NCBI RefSeq assembly: GCF_002161555.1
Contig: NZ_NFHZ01000003.1
Span: forward strand, 62,001-126,000
Direction of reading: 5' to 3'
DNA from: Barnesiella sp. An55
GTDB taxonomy: Bacteria; Bacteroidota; Bacteroidia; Bacteroidales; Barnesiellaceae
Length of the DNA: 64,000 nt
Shown here: positions 1-62,500 of the stretch, piece by piece
Numbering within the stretch: the stretch's first letter is position 1
Layout: the number at the start of each line of letters is the position of its first letter
Translations under genes and position numbers: made by a program
Notes under the pieces: generated by a model
Told to the model about the DNA's origin: nothing
What the model saw: the letters and a program-made list of their open reading frames with translations, nothing else
The model's database searches: none

Positions 1-552
1 CGCACCGGTCTGGCCTACCAGGTTGTTCCCTTGAAAGGGGTGGGCAACAACATCAATACCGACAAGATGTACGACAACATGGTCAACCGTTTCCGCTGGG
101 GTGGCATCGACCAGGCTACGAAAGAGCATCCGCTCTATCTCGATGAGAATGTGCGCCGCATGTGCAACACCATCCGCATGATGTTTGCCGACCTGGTAGA
201 GCAACTCATCAAAGAGGGCAAGAACGAGAAGGCCCTGACGGCTCTGAACCTCATTATGGAGAAGATTCCGGGCTGGCAGGTAACTCACGACCTCACCTCG
301 ATATCGTTTGGCCAGTCTTATCTCGAGTTGGGCGAACGGGAGAAAGGCGAGGCTCTGTTGAGCGAAATCTTCGAAACCTCGGCCAGCTATCTCAACTGGT
401 ACAAGGATCTCACGCCGGGACAGCTTCGCTCCATTCGCAACGATTATGAGAAGCATGTATATATGGTTCACACGATCAATGAGTTGAGCGCGGTTTATGG
501 TTTGACCGATTTGCAAAATAAGATTGCGTCGCGTTTTGCCATTCAAGAATAA
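1..552 (+). CDS. DUF2723 family membrane protein, C-terminal part
   Basis: This reading frame is open from the first base of the window, so only the last 183 residues of a larger protein are visible. The visible part is soluble and helical, with an opening segment LAYQVVPLKG, a conserved-looking stretch with DKMYDNMVNRFRWGG, and a helical tail reminiscent of tetratricopeptide pairs. This matches the C-terminal periplasmic region of the Bacteroidota DUF2723 family, whose N-terminal half is a multi-pass membrane domain related to protein O-mannosyltransferases. The biochemical role of the family is not established. A terminator-like hairpin follows directly, so this gene ends its transcription unit. 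Family assignment rests on the remembered C-terminal pattern and would be settled by the missing upstream half. Confidence 0.7.
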   Translation, partial: RTGLAYQVVPLKGVGNNINTDKMYDNMVNRFRWGGIDQATKEHPLYLDENVRRMCNTIRMMFADLVEQLIKEGKNEKALTALNLIMEKIPGWQVTHDLTSISFGQSYLELGEREKGEALLSEIFETSASYLNWYKDLTPGQLRSIRNDYEKHVYMVHTINELSAVYGLTDLQNKIASRFAIQE

Positions 553-14562: not shown

Positions 14563-14591
14563 AAAAAGACAGATACATCTCATATGGCAAA

Positions 14592-14625
14592 GGGAGCAGC
14601 GTATTCACGCTGCTCCCTTTTTTTT
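14592..14625 (+). terminator. Terminator of the ftsX-queA operon
   Basis: GGGAGCAGCG pairs with CGCTGCTCCC around a short loop, followed by eight T residues. Confidence 0.93.
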
Positions 14626-14704
14626 GCGGGTAGAAAAATTTTTAAGAAAAGGCAGATAAAAGTAATATTTGTAGTAAAAATATATTTTTTTATGTATATT
14701 TTTA

Positions 14705-14712
14705 TATCTTTG
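14705..14712 (+). promoter_or_regulatory. -7 box of the four-gene secreted operon
   Basis: TATCTTTG matches the TAnnTTTG element. The upstream 25 bases are A/T-only and offer no distinct TTTG at the normal spacing. The implied leader is about 85 bases. Confidence 0.5.
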
Positions 14713-14802: not shown

Positions 14803-15444
14803 ATGAAAAAGATTTTATCCGCTATGCTGCTGGTGGCATCGATTGTATTCTGCCCCGTTATGCTCAATGCACAAACCAAATCTCAGATTAAACAGGCCGA
14901 AAAGGCTGGTAAAACAGAAGCCAAGAGACTCGAGAAAGAGGGTTGGAAAAACAGTAGTGCAACTCCCCTGAGACTGGCTATCAAGAACCATTTGCTTAAA
15001 ACCGAGGACTTCGGGGGGACAGCAACCTCTTACGATGCAACGGCCGTAGCCGTAAAATCGCTCATCCTGGGGGGGCGTATGGCTCGTTCGGACATCAGAA
15101 CCCAATATGCCGATATGAACAAGAGTGTGATCAAAGCCCGCATCAACGACCAGTCGCAAGCCATCTCGATCGAGCAGGCCGATAATTTTGTAGCTGCTTA
15201 TGAGAGTATGGTGATGAAAGAGTTTGACGGCGAACTGCAAAAGTCATTCTCGCTTTATCGGGAGCGCAAAGATGGTCTCTACGATGTGAGAGTCTATTTC
15301 TTGCTGGACGAGGATAAGGCTTCGAAAACTCGCATCAGAGCACTGAAGAATGCGGCTGCCGAAGCACAAATCGCACAGGAGATTGCCGATGATATGTCTA
15401 AGTTTATCAACGAAGGATTCAAAGACAATAGCGCAAAAGAGTAA
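14803..15444 (+). CDS. Secreted protein, possibly LPP20-like
   Basis: The 213-residue protein has a clear signal peptide (1-23, cleavage after LNA before Q) and no lipobox. A lysine-rich helix follows, then an alpha/beta region containing a long helix (SLILGGRMARSDIRTQYADMNK) and a strand pair SFSLYRERKDGLYDVRVYFLLDED. The helix-then-'YR..DG.Y.V.VYF' arrangement resembles the LPP20 fold seen in the next gene, but similarity is weak. It ends in a helical, alanine-rich tail. The gene starts an operon of four secreted proteins; the next start is one base after its stop. Its function is unknown; an envelope role is inferred only from export. Confidence 0.8.
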   Translation: MKKILSAMLLVASIVFCPVMLNAQTKSQIKQAEKAGKTEAKRLEKEGWKNSSATPLRLAIKNHLLKTEDFGGTATSYDATAVAVKSLILGGRMARSDIRTQYADMNKSVIKARINDQSQAISIEQADNFVAAYESMVMKEFDGELQKSFSLYRERKDGLYDVRVYFLLDEDKASKTRIRALKNAAAEAQIAQEIADDMSKFINEGFKDNSAKE

Positions 15445-15445
15445 G

Positions 15446-17377
15446 ATGAAGTATATCTCGATATTGATTTTTCTCTGCCTTCTCCCGGCCTCTTTGGGGG
15501 CACAGAGTGTGGCAGAGAAAATGAATAGCTATTTGAATAATTCGGCATATAAATGTGGTAAAGCAAGTGCTTCGACTCTCGAAGAGGCCGACAAGGCCGC
15601 TTTGGAGATGCTTGTCAGCCAGATATCGGTATCGCTGGGAAGCGTCTATGAAGAGGAGTTGTCGCAACACGATACCAGTAACGGGCTCGATTACCAGAGC
15701 AAAGTAAATAGCCAGGTACGCTCCTTCTCGTTTGGTACCCTCCCCAACGTAGGGCAGATTATAGACGAGAGTGAGCCGGGCGTGGTGACGGTGCTTCGTT
15801 ATGTAAAAGTGACCGACTTGAAAAATATCTTTCAAGAGCGGGAAAAGAAGATTTCGGACTTTGTCGCCTCGGGGATGGAGGGCGAGAGACAGTTGCAGAT
15901 TAATGTGGCTTTGCGCTACTACAACTGGGCCCTCATGCTGCTTATTGCCCATCCCAAAACCGTGTATAGCGATATCGACGGGAAAAAGACCAATCTCAAG
16001 TTGTGGTTGGATACCAAGATCAACAACATCTTCAATACCCTTGATGCCGAGGTTGAAGAGTGTGTGGAGACGGGTAACCCCATCGACAAGTATGAAGTGA
16101 AGCTGCGCTTCTCATATTTGGGCGAGCCGGTTTCCGACCTGGAGTTCTACTACAACAATGGCGAGCGATATGTAGGTCCCTGCCGGGTACATGATGGGGT
16201 AGCCATTGTCAATTTCGACAGACTGCCCGACAAGGAGTTGCGCATCCGCTATGACTATAAATTTGAGAACCAGGCCAAGAATTTCGATGCCGAGTTGCGG
16301 GCCGTGCTTGAACTGATCAAGCCCCAAAGTTTCCCCAATGCCGCAGTAGCCTTGCCGGTGAAGAATCGCCGGGGGGTGATTGTGGCCGATAATAAAAAGA
16401 GTACACAACAGAAACTCGAAGAGGCGGTATCGGTAGCGAGTGCTTCGATAGCACCCCCCATTGTGCAGAATAAGGTCGAGCGATTGCAGCTGGAACCGAT
16501 AAGCGACGATGTAGAGTATCGAGCTGTCATGGAGCGGGTCGAGGCAGCCGTGCGTGCAGGCGATATTGCCCCCGTGCAGGACTGCTTTACCCCCGATGGT
16601 TTCAACCTCTTTAAGCAGATGCTGGACCTGGGCAAGGCCTCGATTGTGGGAGATCCTCAATATTCGTTTTGGAAAAGTGGAGGCCCTTATGTCATAGGCA
16701 AGTCGCTCCCGATGAAATTCAAGTTCAGAGGGCGGGGAAACACGTTTGTCGAAGAGATACGATTCAGATTTGACCGAAACAAGAAAATAGCTTCGGTAGC
16801 TTTCGGGTTGACCCAACGGGCCGAAGACGATATCTTCAAGGCCGCGGCCAAGTGGAGCGAAGCCTCGAGATACTCGATCATGTCTTTCCTGGAAGACTAT
16901 CAAACGGCCTACGCGTTGAAACGGTTGGATTTCATCCAGAGTATTTTTTCCAGCAAGGCCATTATTATTACCGGTGTCGTGTGTCAGACGATAGGAAAAG
17001 GGACCTTCCTGGAAGGGGGGCTTAATCTGCCCGAGGAACAAAGTATCAAGACCGTTCGCTATAATCATTACACCAAGGGCGAATATATTGCCAAACTGAA
17101 AAAGAGCTTCGCTTCCAAAGAGTTTGTACATCTGATTTTTGAAGATAACATCATCAAGAAAATAAATACCAATGGCATTATCAACGGTGAAGCTTACGGG
17201 ATACAGATCAAGCAGAGCTATTTCTCCGATAATTATGCCGACTCGGGCTACCTCCTGCTGCATCTGGATATGCGAGGCGAGTATCCCACTATACGGGTGA
17301 GAGCCTGGATTCCCGAAAAGAACGAAGACGCTTCGTTGGACAGGTTTTTAAATCGATTCAGGTTGGGTGGAATCTGA
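15446..17377 (+). CDS. LPP20 family secreted protein
   Basis: The 643-residue protein starts at the ATG at 15446 (MKYISILIF), giving a signal peptide of 19 residues ending LGA before QS. Residues about 30-150 form an LPP20-type domain, recognised by CGKASASTLEEADKAALEML and the helix LVSQISVSLGSVYEEE. LPP20 is a widespread envelope lipoprotein fold of unclear function; here no lipobox cysteine is present. The middle (about 200-310) contains beta-rich segments with FYYNNGERYVGP, possibly a small beta-sandwich. The C-terminal third (about 380-640) looks like a repeated alpha+beta NTF2-like region. It is translationally linked to the preceding gene and followed after 12 bases by the beta-barrel gene. 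No enzymatic motif is visible. Confidence 0.82.
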   Translation: MKYISILIFLCLLPASLGAQSVAEKMNSYLNNSAYKCGKASASTLEEADKAALEMLVSQISVSLGSVYEEELSQHDTSNGLDYQSKVNSQVRSFSFGTLPNVGQIIDESEPGVVTVLRYVKVTDLKNIFQEREKKISDFVASGMEGERQLQINVALRYYNWALMLLIAHPKTVYSDIDGKKTNLKLWLDTKINNIFNTLDAEVEECVETGNPIDKYEVKLRFSYLGEPVSDLEFYYNNGERYVGPCRVHDGVAIVNFDRLPDKELRIRYDYKFENQAKNFDAELRAVLELIKPQSFPNAAVALPVKNRRGVIVADNKKSTQQKLEEAVSVASASIAPPIVQNKVERLQLEPISDDVEYRAVMERVEAAVRAGDIAPVQDCFTPDGFNLFKQMLDLGKASIVGDPQYSFWKSGGPYVIGKSLPMKFKFRGRGNTFVEEIRFRFDRNKKIASVAFGLTQRAEDDIFKAAAKWSEASRYSIMSFLEDYQTAYALKRLDFIQSIFSSKAIIITGVVCQTIGKGTFLEGGLNLPEEQSIKTVRYNHYTKGEYIAKLKKSFASKEFVHLIFEDNIIKKINTNGIINGEAYGIQIKQSYFSDNYADSGYLLLHLDMRGEYPTIRVRAWIPEKNEDASLDRFLNRFRLGGI

Positions 17378-17389
17378 CCCTATGTATAA

Positions 17390-19132
17390 ATGAAACATAT
17401 GAAGAAACTGATAACTACTGCATTGGTGGCTATCTTGGCCATCCATGCATCGGCCCAATTGCGATACATATCCGATTCGTTTCGGATGTTGAGCTATCAA
17501 GCCTATGATGGCGATATGGGAGGAGGCGACCTCTCCTATGAATACTTGAAAGACCAGTGGCCTACCGACGACAATGGAGACCCTGCGGCACTGTTGGTAA
17601 TCAAGTTTAGGAATATGTTGCCCGACGAGAGCCGCCGGTTCCAAATCTCGTTTACGGCCGGGTGTAACAAGGCCGGCGAGGAGTTTCCCACACGCGACAA
17701 GCACCCCGATTCATACTGGTTGTATGTCACGGCCGGCGACCATGTGGGAATAACCATCTACCATCCCGAGTATGGTTCGGTCAAGGTTGGGCCCCTTAAA
17801 CTGGAGCAGACCAAGATGTATGAGTTTATGCTGGAAAACGAAAAGTCGATAAACCTCTCGTTTGCCACCGATCCCCCGGGATCCATTGTCATCTTCGACG
17901 ACCAGCGGTTGCCTCAGGTTACCCCGTGTGAGAAAAAAAATACCACTTATGGTGAGCACAGGTTGTTTCTCATATCGGGAGCAACCCAGTTAGACACGGT
18001 TATCCATGTCGATGGTTCGCGTTCGCACTTCGATTTTAATATGCGCAAAAAGCATTTTTTCAACTTCACTTGCGAGCAGGACGATGCCCAGTTGTATATC
18101 AATGGGAAACTGTATGGCCGATTGCCGCAAAGCAACGTCCCCCTGTATGAGGGCCTTTCCTACACGTTGGTAGCCCTTAAGGGGGGTATAGGCGATACCG
18201 TTTCGTGGTATGTCGATGATAATGTGAGTCGGGAGTACCAGTTCCAGATTGTGAAAAAGAAAACCGTTGAGCTGTATGCCTCGTATCAGGGCGAGCGGGT
18301 GAATGCCTATTTGACGGTCAACCGTTTGGATGGTGCCTATCATAATCATCAGCTACAAAGCTCAGGCTCGTCATTCCGGTTGAATCTGCCTTATGGGCGC
18401 TATCGTTTCAGAATGTCGTATGGCGGAAACTATAAAGAGCGCACCGAGAAGATTTCGGAGAAAAGCAAATCGATTTATGAGTTCCCTATCAAGGCCAAGA
18501 ATTCGATAGTATGGCCCTGGCAGCGCGAGTACGATGTGCGTCCGGTAGGTTTCTCAATGGGATATGTCTCCAAGCAGCTGGTGACTACCGGCAATGGTAT
18601 GAAACTTAAAGAAAATGGTTTTTGGTCCGATGGAGAGGGTACCTCGCTTCATGGTATGCAGGTAGGACTTCATTTCCAACCCTGTTTCTCTTTTGGATTG
18701 GGCCTCTACACGGGTGCGTTCTATGAGTTGTATATGTCGTTCAACGACGATGGTTACGCCTACGACGAATTTCTGGAGCATTGCGCCTATGTGCCCGTAC
18801 ACCTGTATTACAGACTACCCTTCTCGAGTACCGTGGCCCTGTCGTTCCATGGTGGAGTCGGGTTTAATTATAGCATTTATGGAGCTTTTGGAAAGAAAGA
18901 CGACTCGGTAGAAGAATATACCGATTGCTATGGCGAAGCGGGGTATCCCAAGCGTTTCAATATGGCCGCCGAGGTAGGTGTAGGATTCAGAATCGGTTCT
19001 ATTCAAATCAATGCCCAGTATGCCAAGGGCTTGAACGATCACAAATCCTACTCTTCGTTGGGCAGTGGTTATAAAACCATACAAAACAAATTGTCAATTA
19101 GCCTGTCGTGGTTGATTAGTTCGGGTTATTAA
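17390..19132 (+). CDS. Secreted protein with PEGA-like region and outer-membrane beta-barrel
   Basis: The 580-residue protein has a signal peptide; the ATG at 17399 gives the cleaner leader (19 residues ending ASA before QL), the ATG at 17390 adds three residues. Residues about 145-365 consist of short beta-sandwich modules that look like PEGA or carboxypeptidase-regulatory repeats (INLSFATDPPGSIVIFDD, FTCEQDDAQLYINGKLYG). From about 385 to the end there are alternating amphipathic strands and a terminal segment NKLSISLSWLISSGY, typical of a small outer-membrane beta-barrel. It probably anchors the products of this operon in the outer membrane. It lies between the LPP20 gene and the transglutaminase-like gene with gaps of 12 and 17 bases. 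Confidence 0.8.
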   Translation: MKHMKKLITTALVAILAIHASAQLRYISDSFRMLSYQAYDGDMGGGDLSYEYLKDQWPTDDNGDPAALLVIKFRNMLPDESRRFQISFTAGCNKAGEEFPTRDKHPDSYWLYVTAGDHVGITIYHPEYGSVKVGPLKLEQTKMYEFMLENEKSINLSFATDPPGSIVIFDDQRLPQVTPCEKKNTTYGEHRLFLISGATQLDTVIHVDGSRSHFDFNMRKKHFFNFTCEQDDAQLYINGKLYGRLPQSNVPLYEGLSYTLVALKGGIGDTVSWYVDDNVSREYQFQIVKKKTVELYASYQGERVNAYLTVNRLDGAYHNHQLQSSGSSFRLNLPYGRYRFRMSYGGNYKERTEKISEKSKSIYEFPIKAKNSIVWPWQREYDVRPVGFSMGYVSKQLVTTGNGMKLKENGFWSDGEGTSLHGMQVGLHFQPCFSFGLGLYTGAFYELYMSFNDDGYAYDEFLEHCAYVPVHLYYRLPFSSTVALSFHGGVGFNYSIYGAFGKKDDSVEEYTDCYGEAGYPKRFNMAAEVGVGFRIGSIQINAQYAKGLNDHKSYSSLGSGYKTIQNKLSISLSWLISSGY

Positions 19133-19149
19133 TCGATGACAGAAAGAAT

Positions 19150-20616
19150 ATGAATAGAAGATTGTGTATTATCATAGCTCTTTGTGCATTACTCCCTGCC
19201 AAGGGTAATGCACAGGATCCCTATGAGGAGTTTAAGAAACAGGCCCTCGAGGAGTATAGCCAGTTCTCCGACCAGGTGCGAAAGGAGTATGCCAGTTTCA
19301 GAGATCAGGCCAATGCCGAGTATGCCCGTTTCATGCAGGAACCGTGGCCCAAGGCCGACTTGAATAGTCCCGAGCCGGTACCCGATCGCCCCGAGCCGGT
19401 AGATCCGCCGGTGAAGACCGACCCCGACAAAAAGCGTCGCCCCGAAGAGATTCCTTACGACGAAGTGATACCTCTCCCCGACAGGACTCCGGCTCCGCAA
19501 CCGGTCGAGCCTATCGTTCCGCCTCCTGCCCCGGTGGTTTCGACCTTTGACTTCGACTTCTACCATACGAAGTGCACGGTAAGTCTGTCGCCCGAGCAGA
19601 AGTTTACCCTGTCGCAAATCGACGAGCAATCGGTCTCTGAGGCCTGGACAATGCTCTCGCAGAATTCATACAACAACTTGATAATCGATTGCTTGCGCTT
19701 GAGAGACGAACTGAATCTGTGCGATTGGGCCTATGTGATACTGCTGCAACGGCTCACCGAGAGCTACTTCGGGTCGGCCTGGTCGAGTGAGGCTGCACTG
19801 ATGCAGATGTATATACTCACCCAGTCGGGGTATAAGGTGCGCATTGCCCGAGCCGGTACCCGGTTGGTTCTGCTTGTCCCGTCGGATTATACGATTTATC
19901 AGTATCGCTATGTCTATCTGGGGGGGACGAAGTTTTATGTCCTGAATACCTCTGTCAAAGAGAATCTGTATGTATATGACCAGGCATTCCCCAAGGAGCA
20001 GATATTCTCTATCTCGATGAAGCATGCTCCTCAGTTGGCTCTCGAGGTGACCCCCGATCGGGTGTTGACCTCGAGGAAATATCCCTCGGTAACCGTTCGT
20101 TTGAGAACCAATAAGAACTTGATCGATTTTTACAACGACTACCCGCTCAGCAGCAACTGGGATGCCTACTCCCGTTCTTCTTTGAGCGATGAGGTGAAAG
20201 ACAGGCTCTATCCGGTTTTGAAGAGCGCCATTGCCGGGAAGTCGGAAGAAGAGGCCGCCAATATCCTTATCAATTTCGTTCAAACCGCCTTTGAATACAA
20301 GACCGACGATGAGCAGTTTGGTTATGAGCGTCCGCTCTTTGGCGACGAGACAATTTATTACCCCTATAGCGATTGCGAAGATCGGGCCATTCTGTATTCT
20401 ATCCTGGTGCGTGAACTCTTGGGAAGGTCTGTCGTATTGTTGTATTACCCGGGCCATCTGGCTACGGCCGTTCAATTCAGCACCGATATCCAGGGCGACT
20501 ATCTGATGGTCAATGGTACGAAGTATGTCATTTGCGATCCTACCTATATAGGCGCTCCTATCGGCGAGGCCATGCCCTCCTATAAGAATACGAAATGCAC
20601 AGTCATTTACATATAG
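19150..20616 (+). CDS. Secreted transglutaminase-like protein
   Basis: The 488-residue protein has a signal peptide (1-21, ending GNA before QD), a helical repeat of the form YxxFxxQAxxEYxxF (about 24-65), a proline-rich linker (about 70-125) and a C-terminal domain with a transglutaminase/papain-like triad: C409 in YSDCEDRAIL, H436 in YYPGHLATAV and D463 in VICDPTYIG. Such domains act as peptidases, amidases or cross-linking enzymes. The spacing C-27-H-27-D is normal for the family. It closes the operon of four exported proteins and is followed by two hairpins, the second a clear terminator. A role in processing or cross-linking an envelope structure built by its neighbours is inference. Confidence 0.83.
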   Translation: MNRRLCIIIALCALLPAKGNAQDPYEEFKKQALEEYSQFSDQVRKEYASFRDQANAEYARFMQEPWPKADLNSPEPVPDRPEPVDPPVKTDPDKKRRPEEIPYDEVIPLPDRTPAPQPVEPIVPPPAPVVSTFDFDFYHTKCTVSLSPEQKFTLSQIDEQSVSEAWTMLSQNSYNNLIIDCLRLRDELNLCDWAYVILLQRLTESYFGSAWSSEAALMQMYILTQSGYKVRIARAGTRLVLLVPSDYTIYQYRYVYLGGTKFYVLNTSVKENLYVYDQAFPKEQIFSISMKHAPQLALEVTPDRVLTSRKYPSVTVRLRTNKNLIDFYNDYPLSSNWDAYSRSSLSDEVKDRLYPVLKSAIAGKSEEEAANILINFVQTAFEYKTDDEQFGYERPLFGDETIYYPYSDCEDRAILYSILVRELLGRSVVLLYYPGHLATAVQFSTDIQGDYLMVNGTKYVICDPTYIGAPIGEAMPSYKNTKCTVIYI

Positions 20617-20679: not shown

Positions 20680-20719
20680 CCTCGTTGAGCCTCTGAGAAA
20701 AGCCTCAACGAGGTTTTTT
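20680..20719 (+). terminator. Terminator of the secreted-protein operon
   Basis: CCTCGTTGAG (20680-20689) pairs perfectly with CTCAACGAGG (20704-20713) and is followed by six T residues. A second inverted repeat, GGATAATCC with GGATTATC, lies just upstream (about 20634-20658). Confidence 0.92.
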
Positions 20720-20892: not shown

Positions 20893-22122
20893 ATGATGAA
20901 AAATTTTTATGTATTTACTTTGATGGCCCTTCTCTTGATGGGCTGTTCGAAAGAGAAGGATGCTGTGGCCGACAAGGCCATCCAGTTGGCCGATGGGGTG
21001 TCCAGTAGCTACACGGTCTATGCCGACCAGACGACCGCCTCTCCCTCACAGGGAATCACCTTTACCACAACCGGGCCTTGGAAGGCTACGGTAGCCGAGA
21101 CCCGGGCTGCGGCCGACTGGGTGAAGGTTTCGCCCGACCATGGCGACAAGGCCGGCAGTTACACGATTACTATCCTGCTTGATGTCAATACCACGGGGCA
21201 AGACCGTAAAGCGGTCGTGACCATTGAGTGCGGTGCGACCCGCATCGAGATTATCGTCGAGCAGAAGGCTGTGACCGAGAGTGGCGAAGAGCCTCAAAAC
21301 CCGGCTGTCGATGAGCCTCGGGTATCTCGCCTGGAGACGGCCTACTTCTATTACGACGGCACGACGGTGGTGCCCGAGGAGACGTCGGCCTTTGATTTCT
21401 TCTACGACGAGATGGGGCGGCTTTCTCAAATCGTTTCGAATGGTGTTAACGAAGTCCGCTCGATGACTCTTACCTATGGCGAAGGTGGGGTCTCTTATAC
21501 CGTCGTATTGACCGAAAACGGGGTTGAAGATCCGCATGGCGACAAGGGTAAGGCAACGCTCGACGAAGCCGGTCGGGTTGCATCGGGTGAATACTTCTAT
21601 ACGTATGAGAAAAACGGCGAATGGATTACGGGCAAATATAACTACCAGTTGGCATACGATACCGAGGGCTATTTGATCGGATGTGAGTCGAGCACGTCGG
21701 AGCCGGGAGTGTCGCACATTACCTGGGAGAATGGAAATCCCGTGCAGGGACTGTGGGGGGCCGAGAATAATCTAATCGATAGAGCTACCTATGGCGATGT
21801 GCTCAACAGAGCCAATATCGACCTGAACTGGTTGTGTGTATTGACCTCCGAAGGGTGGGACTACTCGGTTGGCGATCCCAACAAATTCTTTGCACTCGCC
21901 GGGCTCGTAGGGAAACGGGCAACCCACATGGTCTCGACAATCTCCGAGTCGGGGGCCGGTCCAACACCTCGGCTTAGCAAGTATAATTATATCCTCGACG
22001 ACGCAACGGGTATGCCCGTTGAGATTTCGCGTGTGACGACCGACTACACCTCCACGAAAGAGTATATATCGATTACACGTGTAAAATTGAGTATGCGAAA
22101 TAATCTTTTGGATTGGAAATAA
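20893..22122 (+). CDS. Lipoprotein with BACON and DUF4595-like domains
   Basis: The 409-residue protein begins at 20893 (a second ATG follows immediately) with a lipoprotein signal whose lipobox is LLLMGC, cysteine followed by SKEK, consistent with surface lipoproteins of Bacteroidota. Residues about 38-130 form a BACON beta-sandwich: a tryptophan in ADWVKVSP, a glycine-rich turn, then VTIECG and IEIIVEQKA. The remainder (about 150-405) is beta-strand rich with FDFFYDEMGRLSQIV and resembles DUF4595, a domain of repeated aromatic strands. BACON domains are thought to bind mucin or carbohydrate. The gene stands alone between its promoter and a strong terminator, so no polysaccharide utilisation locus is indicated. 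Confidence 0.85.
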   Translation: MMKNFYVFTLMALLLMGCSKEKDAVADKAIQLADGVSSSYTVYADQTTASPSQGITFTTTGPWKATVAETRAAADWVKVSPDHGDKAGSYTITILLDVNTTGQDRKAVVTIECGATRIEIIVEQKAVTESGEEPQNPAVDEPRVSRLETAYFYYDGTTVVPEETSAFDFFYDEMGRLSQIVSNGVNEVRSMTLTYGEGGVSYTVVLTENGVEDPHGDKGKATLDEAGRVASGEYFYTYEKNGEWITGKYNYQLAYDTEGYLIGCESSTSEPGVSHITWENGNPVQGLWGAENNLIDRATYGDVLNRANIDLNWLCVLTSEGWDYSVGDPNKFFALAGLVGKRATHMVSTISESGAGPTPRLSKYNYILDDATGMPVEISRVTTDYTSTKEYISITRVKLSMRNNLLDWK

Positions 22123-22385: not shown

Positions 22386-22417
22386 TTGTTTTGTTGGTCA
22401 AAATTTGTGTACCTTTA
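22386..22417 (+). promoter_or_regulatory. Probable promoter of the B12 riboswitch-nrdDG transcript
   Basis: TACCTTTA (22410-22417) is one base from TAnnTTTG, with TTGT 20 bases upstream. The implied transcription start, about 22424, falls right at the 5' edge of the riboswitch, which supports it. Confidence 0.45.
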
Positions 22418-22426
22418 CACCCACAT

Positions 22427-22606
22427 TCCGGTTCGGTATTGTCCGTTGGACAGCACCGATAAAAAGGGAATCGGGTGAAAATCCCGAGCAGTCCCGCTGC
22501 TGTAATTCCTGTGAAAGTCCGTTGACACGAGCCACTGACGAGAATCTGTTTCTGTAGAGTCGGGAAGGCGCCATCGGGCAGGGAAGAGCCAGAAGACCTG
22601 CCGGAG
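22427..22606 (+). ncRNA. Cobalamin riboswitch
   Basis: The leader contains the conserved parts of the adenosylcobalamin aptamer in the right order. These are a 5' stem segment with CCGGTTCGGT, the core GGGAATCGGGTGAAAATCCC (22466-22485), GCAGTCCCGCTGCTGTAA, GCCACTG (22531-22537), GGGAAGGCG (22562-22570) and the B12 box AGCCAGAAGACCTGCC (22587-22602). A small hairpin, GAGCGT with ACGCTC (22623-22642), lies between the aptamer and the nrdD start and could belong to the expression platform. No T-run terminator is seen, so control may act on translation. Riboswitches of this class normally shut down expression when cobalamin is plentiful. Confidence 0.95.
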
Positions 22607-22673
22607 TGAGAGAGAAGCAAATGAGCGTTCGAGGAGACGCTCGCAGTATCCAATTTCTTAACAACTTATCAGC

Positions 22674-25055
22674 ATGGATTATGCAGGTATTACCATCGCC
22701 AAGCGCGATGGTGCCCGGGAGTGTTTCTCGATTGAGAAGATCGAGCGGGCCATTGCCAAGGCTTATCGGGCCGACGGCATCAACGACGATGAGGCCTCGG
22801 TGAAGCAGATTGCGGCCGAGGTGACGGCAGCCATCGACAAGAACGAAATTTCGGTCGAAGAGATTCAAGACCTGGTCGAGCGCCAGTTGATGAAGCGCAA
22901 CCCCTCGGTGGCCAAGCGGTTTATCATCTATCGCGAGTGGCGCACCAAGGAGCGCGAGAAGCGCACCTCGATGAAGCAGGTGATGGACGGCATTGTGGCC
23001 GTCGAGAAGAACGACGTGAACCTGAGCAATGCCAACATGTCGTCGCACACGCCGGCCGGGCAGATGATGACCTTTGCCTCGGAGGTGACCAAGGATTATG
23101 CCTACAAGTACTTGGTGGGGGTACGCTATGGGCGCGCTCATCGCGAGGGCGACATTCACATTCACGACCTCGACTATTATCCCACCAAGACCACAACCTG
23201 TGTGCAGTACGACCTGGAGGATATCTTCAACCGCGGGTTTTACACCAAAAACGGCACCGTGCGCACGCCCCAGTCGATACAGAGCTATGCCACACTGGCT
23301 ACCATCGTGTTCCAGACCAACCAGAACGAGCAGCACGGCGGGCAGTCGATACCGGCCTTCGATCACTTTATGGCTCCTGGTGTGTTGAAGAGTTTCCGCA
23401 AACACCTCGAGATGGCCATCGACTTTATTCTGCGGTTGCGGGGTGCCAGCGACCACCCGTCGCTCAAGGAGCCGATAGTCGAGACGGTGACCTCGATTAC
23501 CGGTTCCGAGGACCAACAGGCTGCGCTGGCGGCCCGGTTGCAGACGTTGGGCGTGGAGCTGTCGCCCGACGAGTTTCGCACCGCCTGGACACAAAGCTAC
23601 GAAACAACCCGCAGGGATACGCATCAGGCCATGGAGGGGTTGGTGCATAACCTCAACACGATGCACTCGCGGGGCGGCAACCAGGTCGTGTTCAGTTCGA
23701 TAAACTATGGCACCGATACCTCGCCCGAGGGGCGTATGGTCATACGCGAGCTGCTCTCGGCCACTACCGAGGGGTTGGGCCACGGCGAAGTGCCGGTCTT
23801 TCCCATTCAGATTTTCAAGGTGAAAGAGGGCGTTTCGTACAGCGATGAGGATTATGCCGTAGCAATGGCCGACTTCGAAGGGGCGATGGCCGGACGCATC
23901 GCCTTCAAGGCGCCCAACTTCGACCTCTTGCTCGAGGCGTGTCGCACCACATCGACCTCGCTCTTCCCCAATTTCCTCTTTCTCGATGCGCCCTATAACC
24001 AAAATGAACTCTGGCGGGCCGACGACCCCGACCGTTTCCGCTACGAGGTGGCCACGATGGGATGTCGCACTCGGGTATTCGAGAATCTGCACGGCGCAAA
24101 GAGTTCGTGGGGGCGGGGCAATCTCTCTTTTACCTCGATGAATATGACCCGCCTGGCTATCGAAGCCCGGCGCGAAGCCGAGGAGTTGCACCCCGATGGC
24201 GACAAGCATGCCATTCGTCGCGAGGCTCGTATCCTCTTCCTCGAGAAGGTGCGCACCACTGCCGCAATGATAGCCGAGCAACTGCACGAGCGGTATGAGT
24301 ATCAGCGCAAGGCGCTCGCCCGTCAGTTCCCCTTCATGATGGGCAACGATGTGTGGAAGGGTGGAGGCCGCTTGCGCCCCGACGAAGAGGTGGGCGATGT
24401 GATCGACAGTGGTACGCTGGGCATCGGCTTCATTGGCGGACACAATGCCATGTGCGCCATCTATGGCGAGGGGCACGCCCACAGCCACGAGGCCTGGCAA
24501 ACGCTCTACGATGCCGTGGTGGTGATGAACAACGTGGTCGAGGAGTACAAGACCCGCTATCACCTCAACTACTCGGTACTGGCCACGCCGGCCGAGGGGC
24601 TTTCGGGGCGCTTCACCCGTCTGGATCGCAAGCGCTACGGGGTTATCCCGGGGGTAACCGACCGCGAATACTACGTCAACTCGTTCCATATCGATGTGAA
24701 GGAGCCGGTAACCATCGTCGAGAAGATCAAGAAGGAGGCCCCCTTCCACGCCATTACCCGGGGCGGCCATATCACCTATGTCGAGCTCGACGGTGAAGCC
24801 AAGAAGAATATATCGGTTATTCTGAAAATCGTGAAGGTGATGCACGACGAGGGCATCGGTTACGGTTCGATAAACCACCCGGTCGATACCTGCCGCGCGT
24901 GCGGGTATCGGGGGGTCATCTATACGCAGTGCCCCGTGTGCAAGAGCGAGGACATATCGCGTATGCGTCGCATTACCGGTTACCTTACCGGCAGTCTCGA
25001 GTCGTGGAATTCGGCCAAGCAGGCCGAGGAACGCGACCGTGTAAAGCACAGGTAG
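22674..25055 (+). CDS. nrdD: Anaerobic ribonucleoside-triphosphate reductase NrdD
   Basis: NrdD is the class III, oxygen-sensitive glycyl-radical enzyme that reduces NTPs to dNTPs using formate or a thiol. The 793-residue protein has an N-terminal ATP-cone (about 5-95), the ten-stranded barrel, a C-terminal zinc site (C740, C743, C753 and C756) and the glycyl-radical loop RITGYLTG with the predicted radical at G769. The N-terminus MDYAGITIAKRDG is slightly longer than usual. It follows a cobalamin riboswitch, so it should be repressed when B12 is available and a B12-dependent class II reductase elsewhere in the genome can take over. nrdG follows without a gap. Confidence 0.97.
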   Translation: MDYAGITIAKRDGARECFSIEKIERAIAKAYRADGINDDEASVKQIAAEVTAAIDKNEISVEEIQDLVERQLMKRNPSVAKRFIIYREWRTKEREKRTSMKQVMDGIVAVEKNDVNLSNANMSSHTPAGQMMTFASEVTKDYAYKYLVGVRYGRAHREGDIHIHDLDYYPTKTTTCVQYDLEDIFNRGFYTKNGTVRTPQSIQSYATLATIVFQTNQNEQHGGQSIPAFDHFMAPGVLKSFRKHLEMAIDFILRLRGASDHPSLKEPIVETVTSITGSEDQQAALAARLQTLGVELSPDEFRTAWTQSYETTRRDTHQAMEGLVHNLNTMHSRGGNQVVFSSINYGTDTSPEGRMVIRELLSATTEGLGHGEVPVFPIQIFKVKEGVSYSDEDYAVAMADFEGAMAGRIAFKAPNFDLLLEACRTTSTSLFPNFLFLDAPYNQNELWRADDPDRFRYEVATMGCRTRVFENLHGAKSSWGRGNLSFTSMNMTRLAIEARREAEELHPDGDKHAIRREARILFLEKVRTTAAMIAEQLHERYEYQRKALARQFPFMMGNDVWKGGGRLRPDEEVGDVIDSGTLGIGFIGGHNAMCAIYGEGHAHSHEAWQTLYDAVVVMNNVVEEYKTRYHLNYSVLATPAEGLSGRFTRLDRKRYGVIPGVTDREYYVNSFHIDVKEPVTIVEKIKKEAPFHAITRGGHITYVELDGEAKKNISVILKIVKVMHDEGIGYGSINHPVDTCRACGYRGVIYTQCPVCKSEDISRMRRITGYLTGSLESWNSAKQAEERDRVKHR

Positions 25056-59534: not shown

Positions 59535-62500
59535 ATGTTCAGGAAACGAGCAATTGTGATATGTCTGGGAATCGCCTGTGCGGGGTCGCTCTCGGCCTCC
59601 AAACCGGGGGTGCCGGTTTATAACGATTACCGGGCTTTGATAGAGCGAGGCATCTCTCTTTTCGAGGAGCAGAACTATGTGGGTTGTGCCGATCTCATGC
59701 AAGAGGCTTGTGCAGGCGATCTGCCGCGTGAGTTGCGCGAGACGGCCGACTGGTATCTGGCCCTGGCCGAGGCCCGCAACCACTCGTCGCAGACGGTGAG
59801 CCGCCTGACGGCTTTTCTGCGCGAGTATCCCGAGTCGTCGCACACCTTGCAGGCCCGGTTGGCTTTGGCCGACTATTACTACGACCGGCAAGAGTATGAC
59901 CGGGCTCTGGAAGCCTACCGTTCGGTCGATGTGAGTCTGCTCACCGGCGACGAAGAGGATAGTTGGGGCTATCACACCGCCTGCTCGCTGTTGAAAACCG
60001 GCGATGCCGGGGCGGCCAAACCTCTTTTCCAGATTCTCGTGGCGAAAGATAAATACCGGGTAGGAGCCACCTTCTACCTGGCCTACATACAGATGAACGA
60101 AGGCGACGACCAAGCCGCTTTGAGCAACTTTGCCAAGGTCAAGGGCGATGCTCAATACGGCTATTCGGCGCGGCTGCACATGCTGCAAATCTATTTCAAG
60201 CAGAAATGGTTTGCCCAGGTATTGAGCGAGGGGAAAGAGTTGCTCTCTCACCCCATGGCCGAGGCCGACGCCTATACCGAGCTGCTCCGTCTGCTGGGCG
60301 AGAGTGCCTACCAGGAGGGCGACGACCAGTCGGCCACGACCTATCTCGAACGCTATTTGCAGCGCTGCGGAACCCCCGAGCGTTCGTCGCTCTATGCCTT
60401 GGGTATCATCGCCTACCGTCGGGGCGAGGATGTGCGCACCATCGACTATCTGAGCCGGGTTACCGGCCCCGACGATGCTCTGTCGCAGAATGCCTACCTC
60501 TACATCGGCCAGGCCTATCTGCGGGCAGGCGACAAAAACAATGCCCGCATGGCTTTCGAGATGGCCTCGCAGGGCACCTACGACACGCAGGTGCGCGAGA
60601 CGGCGCTCTACAACTATGCCCTTTGTCTCTATGATCATTCGGCCTCGCCGTTCGACAACTCGGTGGGGGTATTCGAGCGTTTCCTCAACGAGTTCCCCGA
60701 CTCGCGCTATGCCGATAAAATCAACGACTATCTGGTCGAGGTCTATATGACGACCCGCAACTACCGGTCGGCCCTGGCCTCAATCGAGAAGATACAGCGT
60801 CCCGACAGCAAGATATTGGCTGCCAAACAGCGCATCCTGTTCCAGTTGGGAACCGAGGCCTTTACCAACGCCCGCATCGATGAGGCCCGGCAACTCTTCA
60901 CCCAGGCCATTGCCGTGGGTAACTACGATGCCGACATACGGGCCAAGTCCTCGTTCTGGCTGGCCGAGTGCCAATACCGCCAGGGACAGTACGGAACGGC
61001 TGCCCGCAACTACTCGACCTACCTCTCGAGTTGCAAAGACAAGAAGAGCGAGATGTATGCCCTGGCTTGGTACGACTGGGCCTATTGCCAGTTCAAGCAA
61101 CATAACTTTTCGCAGGCACTCGACGGCTTCTCGCGTTACCTCTCGGCCCAGTCGGGCGCCGATAAACGCCTGTTGGCCGATGCCTATGCCCGCACCGGCG
61201 ACTGCTATTACTACGCCCGCCGGTATGCCGATGCCGAGCAGTATTATGGCCGGGCCCAGCAGACCGATGCCTCGAGCGGCGACTACGCCCTCTTCCAGAA
61301 AGCCTTTATGGCCGGGCTGCAAAAGAACCAGGAGCGCAAAATCGAATTGCTCGATCAACTCATTGCCCAATATCCCCGCTCGAGCTACCTGGCCAATGCC
61401 TGGTTCGAGAAGGGGCAAGCCTACTCGATACTCAATCGCACCGACGAAGCCATTGCCAGCTATCGCCAGTTGATGGCCAGCTATCCGCAGAGTGCAGTGG
61501 CCCGCAAAGGCGGCCTGCAACTGGGTATGATCTACTTCAACAGCGGGCAGACCGACGCCTCGATTGCGGCCTACCAGCAGGTTATCGAGCGCTATCCCAC
61601 CAGCGAAGAGGCCCGTGTGGCCGTGGCCGACCTGAAATCGGTCTATGTCGAGAAGGATGCCGTCGATGCCTATGCCGCTTACCTCAATCGTGTGGGATTG
61701 GCCGAGCAGGCTCCGGTGGCCGAACTCGACTCGCTCTCCTACATGGCCGCCGAGCGCACCTACATGACGGGTAAAGGGGTGGCCTCACTCGAGAAATACC
61801 TGCGCAACTATCCCTCGGGAGCCTTCGGCATACCGGCCAACTTCTACGTGGGGCAGGCTGCGTTTGCCGCCAAGGAGTATGACAAGGCCCTCACTTCGTT
61901 TGACTATGTGGTAACCCATGCTCCTGATGGCGAATTCGCCGAGGAGGCACTGGCCCGCAAGTGCGAGATACTCTATGTGAACAATCGCTACGACGAGGCC
62001 CTCGAAGGCTTCAAGGCTCTCGAGAAGAAGGCTACCACCAGCGAGAACAAGCAGGCGGCCTGGCTGGGTATGTTGCGCATTGCCCGCAACAAGCAGCAGT
62101 ATGACCTGGTACTGACCTCGGCCGAAGGTCTGTTGGACGAGAGCAAGTTGTCGCCCGACTTGCGGCAAGAGGTACTCTTTGCCCGGGCCGATGCCTATGT
62201 CCACACCCAGCAGGGCGAGAAGGCTGCCGCCGATTGGACGGAGCTCTCGCAAGACACCCGTTCGCTGTACGGCGCACAAAGTGCCTATCTGTTGGCTCAG
62301 TATCAGTTTGACAACAAGGCCCTCAACAACGCCGAGAAGACCTTGAACGCCTTTATCGACAAGGGCACTCCCCACAGCTATTGGCTGGCCCGCGGCTTCC
62401 TGCTCATGGCCGATATCTATGAGAAGCGGGGCGAGACCTTCCAGGCCCGGCAATATCTGCAAAGCTTGCGCAACAACTATCCGGCGAGCGACGACGATAT

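Follow-up and report, generated by a model that had tools for sequence, protein, structure and literature searches.

A set of four genes, hereafter genes 1–4, was analyzed within the window, the whole stretch of 64,000 nucleotides taken from contig NZ_NFHZ01000003.1 of Barnesiella sp. An55 (positions 62,001 to 126,000; RefSeq assembly GCF_002161555.1). The four genes lie on one strand, flanked by queA on the left and by a lipoprotein gene on the right, and are separated by gaps of 1, 12, and 17 bases (Table 1). The mechanical open reading frame (ORF) of gene 2 begins at 15350, within gene 1, and the ATG at 15446 was taken as its start. Signal peptides, read by eye at each N-terminus, are predicted to end in NAQ, GAQ, SAQ, and NAQ for genes 1–4, respectively. 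The four genes, their gaps, their signal peptides, and the two flanking terminators were all as described in a first-pass annotation of the sequence, in which the set had been proposed to form a common envelope system. The terminator scan omits the hairpin after gene 4, since its loop has 14 bases and the scan allows 8. We take TAnnTTTG, the motif fitted by TATCTTTG upstream of gene 1, to be the Bacteroidetes −7 element; no complete −33/−7 promoter pair was found near 14705, where TATCTTTG has no matching −33. Between 14500 and 20900, the scan returned 6 promoter-like sites, where shuffles predict 8.7, and 11 terminator-like sites, where they predict 6.0 (standard deviation, 2.4); set against these expectations, scan matches alone mean little.

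Table 1. Features of the four-gene set and its site (positions of the window; residue numbers for protein domains)
Feature	Position	Strand	Description
Accessory segment	14563–20673		unmatched in congeners whose flanks align (left, queA; right, from 20674)
Intrinsic terminator after queA	14589–14628	+	14-pair stem 14589–14620, loop of 4, T run (scan)
TATCTTTG	14705–14712	+	fits TAnnTTTG
Gene 1	14803–15444	+	213 amino acid residues, predicted to be exported
Gene 2	15446–17377	+	643 residues counted from the ATG
Gene 2, predicted LPP20/SHS2-type domain	residues about 30–122		predicted β-hairpin 64–93
Gene 2, middle			linker and beta domain
Gene 2, predicted NTF2-like C-terminal domain	residues about 465–627		
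Gene 3	17390–19132	+	580 residues, predicted to be exported
Gene 3, PEGA domain	residues about 154–194		
Gene 3, predicted outer-membrane β-barrel	residues about 421–550		
Gene 4	19150–20616	+	488 residues, predicted to be exported
Gene 4, domains			signal peptide, helix 24–62, proline-rich stretch, N-terminal half, C-terminal domain of predicted transglutaminase fold with C409/H436/D463
Terminator after gene 4	20680–20719	+	arms 20680–20689 and 20704–20713, six T (seen in the sequence)

Because the Pfam matches of the window proteins were weak, the gene families were judged through their relatives. In single-sequence searches of 60 relatives, matches to gene 2 came from 8 genomes, to gene 4 from 14, and to gene 3 from 4; several of these matches were partial or weak, and profiles were needed. 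A search for gene 4 relatives, which used a Cys pattern, confirmed at least 585 in GTDB contigs, and the best 80, which are not a random draw, were kept as loci. Locus classes were counted with a custom ORF caller and single-linkage clusters. Ten of the 81 loci, one of them the window, have the exact order of a small gene, gene 2, gene 3, and gene 4; the gene order search proposed in the first-pass annotation thus found it in 9/80 relatives of gene 4, from Parabacteroides acidifaciens 426-9, Dysgonamonadaceae, Bacteroides muris NM69_E16B, Candidatus Amulumruptor, Muribaculaceae, Prevotella, Bacteroidaceae (two loci), and Bacteroidales. Genes 2 and 3 both accompanied gene 4 in 19/81 loci, and a small LPP20-type gene, a class that joins two profiles, stood in a same-strand run with gene 4 in 64/81.

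Co-occurrence was then counted in 295 genomes sampled evenly across the order; full-length gene 2 was present in 23 genomes, gene 4 in 68, and both in 22. Gene 4 was found in 22/23 holders of gene 2 versus 46/272 other genomes (Fisher p 9e-15), and in 21/22 holders when the window genome was left out (Fisher 4e-14); these 22 other holders are spread over 19 families. Twelve of the 35 genomes matching gene 2 had a partial gene and were not counted (4 of these 12 have gene 4), and three of the 23 counted holders (G139, G262, and G044) have gene 2 in pieces or with a stop. A gene matching the gene 3 profile lay at most three genes from gene 2 in 13 of the 17 gene 2 loci fetched from the 23 holders, and two of the four loci lacking it nearby were contig ends. 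Across the phylum, gene 4 relatives, many of them partial, were detected in 43/296 genomes. The named loci and the 295-genome sample overlap, since L073 and L142 very probably represent the same contig (same map); the maps of L117 and L118 are almost identical.

One explanation is that these are unrelated exported genes that face the same direction and are neighbours by chance. It agrees with the frequent separation of genes 2 and 4, which were unlinked in 13 of the 22 genomes with both and within about 4 kb of each other in 9. However, the order is kept over several genera and co-occurrence is strong even when the genes are unlinked, which makes chance highly improbable. The unlinked pairs also weigh against a single system, as does the construction of the gene 2 profile from copies near gene 4, which may favour gene 2 of gene 4-bearing genomes. 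Since the arrangement is conserved in other genomes, it is more than chance, and from this conservation the four genes very probably act together. The idea of a common system, for which dispersal of the four genes in related genomes had been named as one refuting observation, therefore stands, with the order kept and gene 4 present in nearly all holders of gene 2.

Gene 4 matched Transglut_core (E 0.078), ACP_PD, and MucB_RseB in Pfam at E up to 10. The Transglut_core (PF01841) score was 13.7 bits versus a cut-off of 23, and a search of the own genome with this family matched two other genes and missed gene 4. The structure model was confident (mean predicted local distance difference test score (pLDDT), 93.4). 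When its C-terminal domain was compared with solved structures by Foldseek, LapG came first (4fgp_B, E 4.5e-3). In VIA-align, the first match was 4u65_E (Z 10.4, 139 residues, root-mean-square deviation (rmsd) 3.9), a chain that we take to be LapG, followed by three LapG entries at ranks 2–4 (Z 9.2–9.4). C409, H436, and D463 were invariant in 65/65 rows, comprising the window and 64 proteins of these loci, the invariance of C409 being partly ensured by the search pattern; in a 15-row alignment that predates the Cys pattern, C409 was kept in 14/15 and the His and Asp in 15/15 rows. The transglutaminase-like assignment of the first-pass annotation, with this triad, is thus borne out by the predicted fold and by the intact residues.

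As described in passages of PMC3032545, the cysteine protease LapG has a C-H-D triad, and its cleavage of the adhesin LapA frees LapA from the cell surface. Gene 4 resembles it as a predicted exported transglutaminase-fold protein with a C-H-D triad whose nearest solved fold is LapG. Unlike LapG, it showed no match to the LapG/BTLCP families (Peptidase_C93 and DUF920) in Pfam at E up to 10 and carries an extra N-terminal half and a helix, and no LapD-type receptor or giant adhesin was noticed by eye in the cassette. The first-pass annotation had left open whether the enzyme processes or cross-links its partners; because LapG proteases are the closest solved folds, processing is the likelier of the two and cross-linking the less likely.

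Several results speak against a LapG-like activity. In VIA-align, LapG was closely followed by TglA (Z 9.1) and by PNGase, TG2/TG3, and FXIII (about 8), and since these other transglutaminase-fold enzymes come so close, the fold does not decide the activity. The LapG match is confined to the catalytic domain, with a Foldseek E above 0.001, and no transglutaminase was among the PDB structures matched by a sequence profile of gene 4. Pseudomurein endoisopeptidases also matched at Z 7.7–7.8; the tool warns that a Z below 8 can mean a common arrangement. Gene 4 might accordingly be read as a cross-linker, either a true transglutaminase or an isopeptide former, that links the products of genes 1 and 2 with one another, with gene 3, or with peptidoglycan. 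The same fold, the triad, and the presence of TG2, TG3, FXIII, and Streptococcus pyogenes TglA among the fold matches are consistent with such an enzyme, and Csd6 and Pgp2, whose NTF2-like domains are similar to that of gene 2, are peptidoglycan-acting enzymes. Nevertheless, LapG ranked first in both fold comparisons and the gene 4 sequence falls under the Transglut_core cut-off, and we consider a cross-linker unlikely.

In the model of gene 4, the order of elements in the N-terminal half resembles that in the C-terminal half. Alignment of the two halves by hhalign gave a score of 27.0, which none of 150 column shuffles reached (best, 24.9); the reversed control scored 13.7 and 30 unrelated segments at most 17.1, and the hhalign probability was just 10–18%. 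Because of the similar order of elements and the profile score above the controls, gene 4 may be a duplicated fold in which one half has decayed and is dead. Many gene 4 relatives are about 860–920 residues long and have a C-terminal extension (e.g., L032:6735-9383, L033:2361-5015, L044:6670-9288, and L045:6687-9344). Elsewhere in the same genome, on contig C34, lies another copy of gene 4, solitary and 34% identical (L026:1468-2988); its neighbours are the same in congener G001, and G002 has a mere short remnant there.

Window gene 2 had no Pfam match to LPP20 (PF02169) and has no lipobox by eye. Among 20 family members, LPP20 was matched in 10 and Cds6_C in 7 at 0.01, and the gene 2 profile matched the LPP20 structure PDB 4kzs at E 4.3e-6, so that the LPP20 assignment is well supported at the level of sequence profiles. 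The structure model was of middling quality (mean pLDDT, 75.8). It places a hairpin (64–77/80–93) between a helix (45–60) and the next strand (103–107), where FlgP has its ring-forming insert. In the FlgP family, ring formation accompanies this insert, as the authors state in a passage of PMC12222027. In fold comparisons, the NTF2-like end matched Csd6 (Z 15.2, 155 residues, rmsd 4.1) and 3rob (Z 14.8, 120 residues, rmsd 1.8), within a very common fold that gave many matches at Z 13–15. Gene 2 thus probably shares an LPP20/SHS2 domain, recognised by sequence, with the FlgP/FlgQ basal disk, the FlgT ring, and Helicobacter pylori Lpp20, and a low-confidence model predicts a hairpin at the position of the one in FlgP. 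Unlike FlgP and FlgT, it also has a beta domain and ends in an NTF2-like one, and no flagellar genes were noticed beside it. The NTF2-like C-terminal domain is also found in Csd6 and Pgp2, from which gene 2 differs in that no peptidase domain was recognised in it.

Gene 1 likewise has no lipobox by eye and gave no Pfam match to LPP20 (PF02169) itself; at a threshold of 0.1, the family was matched in 2 of 34 gene 1 family members. The profile of these 34 rows matched PDB 5ok8 (Lpp20) at E 0.0087, and gene 1 is akin to a family of small exported proteins (profile comparison, E 1.3e-17). Gene 1 may therefore be called distantly LPP20-like, weakly so. The first-pass annotation had assigned LPP20 to both genes, which holds for gene 2 and is weakened for gene 1. 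In six of the nine other exact-order loci, the position of gene 1 is taken by a small lipoprotein; among the seven loci inspected (all but L093 and L128), the remaining one, L076, has a soluble protein. Direct profile comparison of the gene 1 type with the small lipoprotein type did not support homology (probability 0.9%, E 0.061). Iterated searches started from the two types ran into each other. The two types occupy one place in the cassette, and their homology is not proven.

A lipobox was found in 25 of the 68 small LPP20-type genes of the operons, and none of these 25 had at least two acidic residues at positions +2 to +7 after the lipid cysteine, as against 18 of 31 lipobox-bearing genes of the type B cluster described below; both counts rest on a lenient lipobox pattern and on a threshold of two that we set. 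In Capnocytophaga canimorsus, the minimal export signal is a basic or polar residue followed by two acidic ones, and for Bacteroides fragilis the predicted signal is SDDDD (passages of PMC5080379). Since the acidic signal is absent, the small LPP20-type lipoproteins of other loci probably face the periplasm, and many of the exchanged type B lipoproteins, in which acidic residues follow the lipid cysteine, should face outside. Of the two locations that had been suggested for the LPP20 proteins, the periplasm is thus the probable one for these small lipoproteins.

Gene 3 scored below the Pfam thresholds for OMP_b-brl_2 (21.4 bits, cut-off 27, E 3e-4) and PEGA (19.3 bits, cut-off 20.8). In its family, whose alignment admitted 19 of 24 candidate relatives, PEGA (PF08308) was matched in 20/20 members at 0.01 (best E, 2.9e-55), OMP_b-brl_2 (PF13568) in 7/20, and an FGE-sulfatase domain in 5/20; in the alignment, the FGE stretch occupies the barrel position of the other members. 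Gene 3 is, as had been proposed, probably a PEGA protein with an outer-membrane barrel, the PEGA domain being found throughout the family and the barrel probable.

In the other loci, gene 4 was mostly kept with a small gene and the middle genes differed. The window set is one version, type A, of a wider modular envelope cassette of Bacteroidota. Type B, found in 19/81 loci, combines a protein of about 290 residues, in a class that pools two kinds of such genes, with one or more proteins of the CarboxypepD_reg cluster. DUF5683 was matched in 3/3 of the 290-residue proteins tested, two of them above the cut-off, and among 20 scanned of 32 long middle proteins, CarboxypepD_reg was matched in 19, BACON_2 in 15, fn3 in 13, Lcl_C in 10, and LamG in 4. 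In type C (7/81 loci), gene 4 shares its run with a gene of the caspase cluster and one of the DUF4384 or DUF5683 type. Both DUF4384-kind genes tested matched, one above the cut-off, and Peptidase_C14 was matched in 11 of 12 scanned members of the caspase cluster, some of which carry TPR, Sel1, leucine-rich, or WG repeats. Ten further loci hold gene 2 or gene 3 and never both, eight the small gene alone, and three the small gene with a 290-residue gene.

Alternatively, the cassette might be a surface-recognition or adhesion system, in which the exchangeable middles (PEGA-barrel, FGE, Lcl_C or LamG ends, and leucine-rich or WG repeats) bind, while their display and release fall to gene 4 and the LPP20-type genes. 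The type B domains, often preceded by acidic residues after the lipid cysteine, and the FGE domain of some PEGA proteins point in this direction. On the other hand, the window version has no recognised binding domain, and type C has a caspase domain in place of one. We regard this role, which is compatible with the scaffold model proposed below, as rather doubtful. The type C loci might instead indicate a secreted proteolytic or suicide pathway, with gene 4 in a cascade with caspases and the caspase lost from the window version, and one type C caspase protein from another locus matched the PADLOC model 'caspase' (E 5.9e-6). Such a pathway is very unlikely, because the window cassette has no caspase, none of its four proteins matched PADLOC at E 0.01, and caspase types are a minority of the loci.

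Several individual loci show further arrangements. The only match of a plasmid search, 137 bases long, was to a record of Bacteroides finegoldii, in which an LpoB/CsgG-like protein, DUF6175, LPP20, an LPP20 lipoprotein, an unknown protein, and a gene 4 relative follow each other (L052:5087-12309); since dprA adjoins, this 'plasmid' record may be a piece of chromosome. Its upstream LpoB-like protein (25.5 bits, cut-off 22.3; weaker matches to FlgT_C, CsgG, and FlgT_M) recalls CsgG/LpoB-type envelope operons, from which the window cassette differs in that it contains no such protein and no curli-like subunits were noticed. In 'bacterium isolate Tb.RUG.391', which may lie outside Bacteroidota, a long operon (L102:4891-21608) has several LPP20-type and CarboxypepD_reg-cluster genes around gene 4. 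In two congeners (L047:7353-9671 and L048:6688-9015), a shorter exported protein of its own carries the gene 2 C-terminal domain and lies beside a larger protein, which in L047 has TPR repeats; this is perhaps a related system. At L050:1540-15720, a protein with the gene 2 C-terminal domain lies near two proteins whose starts are presumably TIR-like and a large protein that we take by eye to be NTPase-like.

From the predicted folds and the observed exchange, we infer how the set might be assembled and what it might do. All four products would be exported. Gene 3 would insert in the outer membrane via its barrel and bear PEGA sandwiches, and genes 1 and 2 would lie beneath it in the periplasm, where the LPP20 domain of gene 2 might pack side by side through its hairpin in a FlgP-like manner and its NTF2-like end might grip a partner or peptidoglycan. 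Gene 4, with its predicted transglutaminase fold, would be a cysteine peptidase of the periplasm and would trim a cassette component or set it free, as LapG does LapA. Together with the small LPP20-type gene, it would form the common base, since both remain while the middle is exchanged. This mechanism as a whole, in which a scaffold in the periplasm sits on the outer membrane and is served by a LapG-like processing enzyme, is offered tentatively, at somewhat less than an even chance.

The following observations count against it. The gene 2 hairpin has a pLDDT below 50 and its stretch is shorter in 3/20 rows (38, 34, and 30 versus 42–43 residues), and because the fold comparisons covered mainly the NTF2-like end, the SHS2 fold rests on the sequence and on a reading of the model. 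The match of the gene 1 profile to Lpp20 (E 0.0087) weakens to E 0.3 once lipoproteins and some other rows are omitted and 24 of the 34 remain, and the kinship of genes 1 and 2 is weak (profile comparison E 1.2e-4, probability 55%). Finally, gene 4 fell in no cassette class in 15/81 loci; 6 of these loci lie at the start of their contig, and in three a gene of the caspase or CarboxypepD cluster stands next to gene 4.

In a more speculative extension, which is doubtful, the cassette would be a general envelope machine of Bacteroidota, with a base of a small LPP20-type protein and a two-domain LapG-like peptidase, swappable surface modules (barrel, lectin-like lipoprotein, FGE-tipped PEGA protein, or caspase), a ring- or sheet-like assembly beneath the outer membrane, and a proteolytic release or switch, unlike described secretion, adhesion, or flagellar systems. 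Each domain is already known, and no description of the combination was found in the open-access literature searched, a search that is no proof of absence since most subscription papers lie outside it. A word search of the main text of PMC12578637, on a described Bacteroidota BAM complex, found no LPP20, PEGA, or transglutaminase that would link it to the set. The set may work like a LapG-type processing unit on an LPP20-type base; it is kept apart from the LapG and LPP20 lipoprotein families because gene 4 fails the LapG profile and the window genes have no lipobox. If the proposal is correct, many gut and rumen Bacteroidota would share an unstudied envelope cassette in which the surface part is swapped and the peptidase and LPP20-type base are constant. 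LPP20 proteins would gain a role beyond flagella, and a LapG-like release step would exist in Bacteroidota, in which we know of none.

The cassette is accessory at this site, because five congeners lack it there. QueA was 95–99% identical in eight congeners. In five of them, queA and the gene corresponding to 22674–25055, presumably an anaerobic ribonucleotide reductase, lie on one contig 0.5–2.1 kb apart, versus 8.1 kb in the window; the reductase was not found in the other three. G001 and G008 align with the window to 14562 and again from 20674 (72–73% over 110–111 bases), with 42 and 51 unrelated bases, respectively, between the aligned flanks. G003, G004, and G006 re-align from 22320, 22383, and 22320, respectively, so that more is absent than in G001 and G008. 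In none of the eight congeners did single-sequence searches detect gene 3 or a full-length gene 2. The segment was either gained here or lost in the other congeners; its G+C content is not unusual, and no mobile genes were noticed beside it in the ORF list by eye. The terminator after gene 4 belongs to the site and not to the cassette, because its sequence is shared with G001 and G008.

The lipoprotein gene that adjoins the cassette (20896–22122) is matched in G001 and G008 and has no match at the site in G003, G004, and G006; it is a second accessory gene at the same place. A cobalamin riboswitch (RF00174, 109.6 bits) lies at 22412–22619, just 5′ of the presumed reductase gene.

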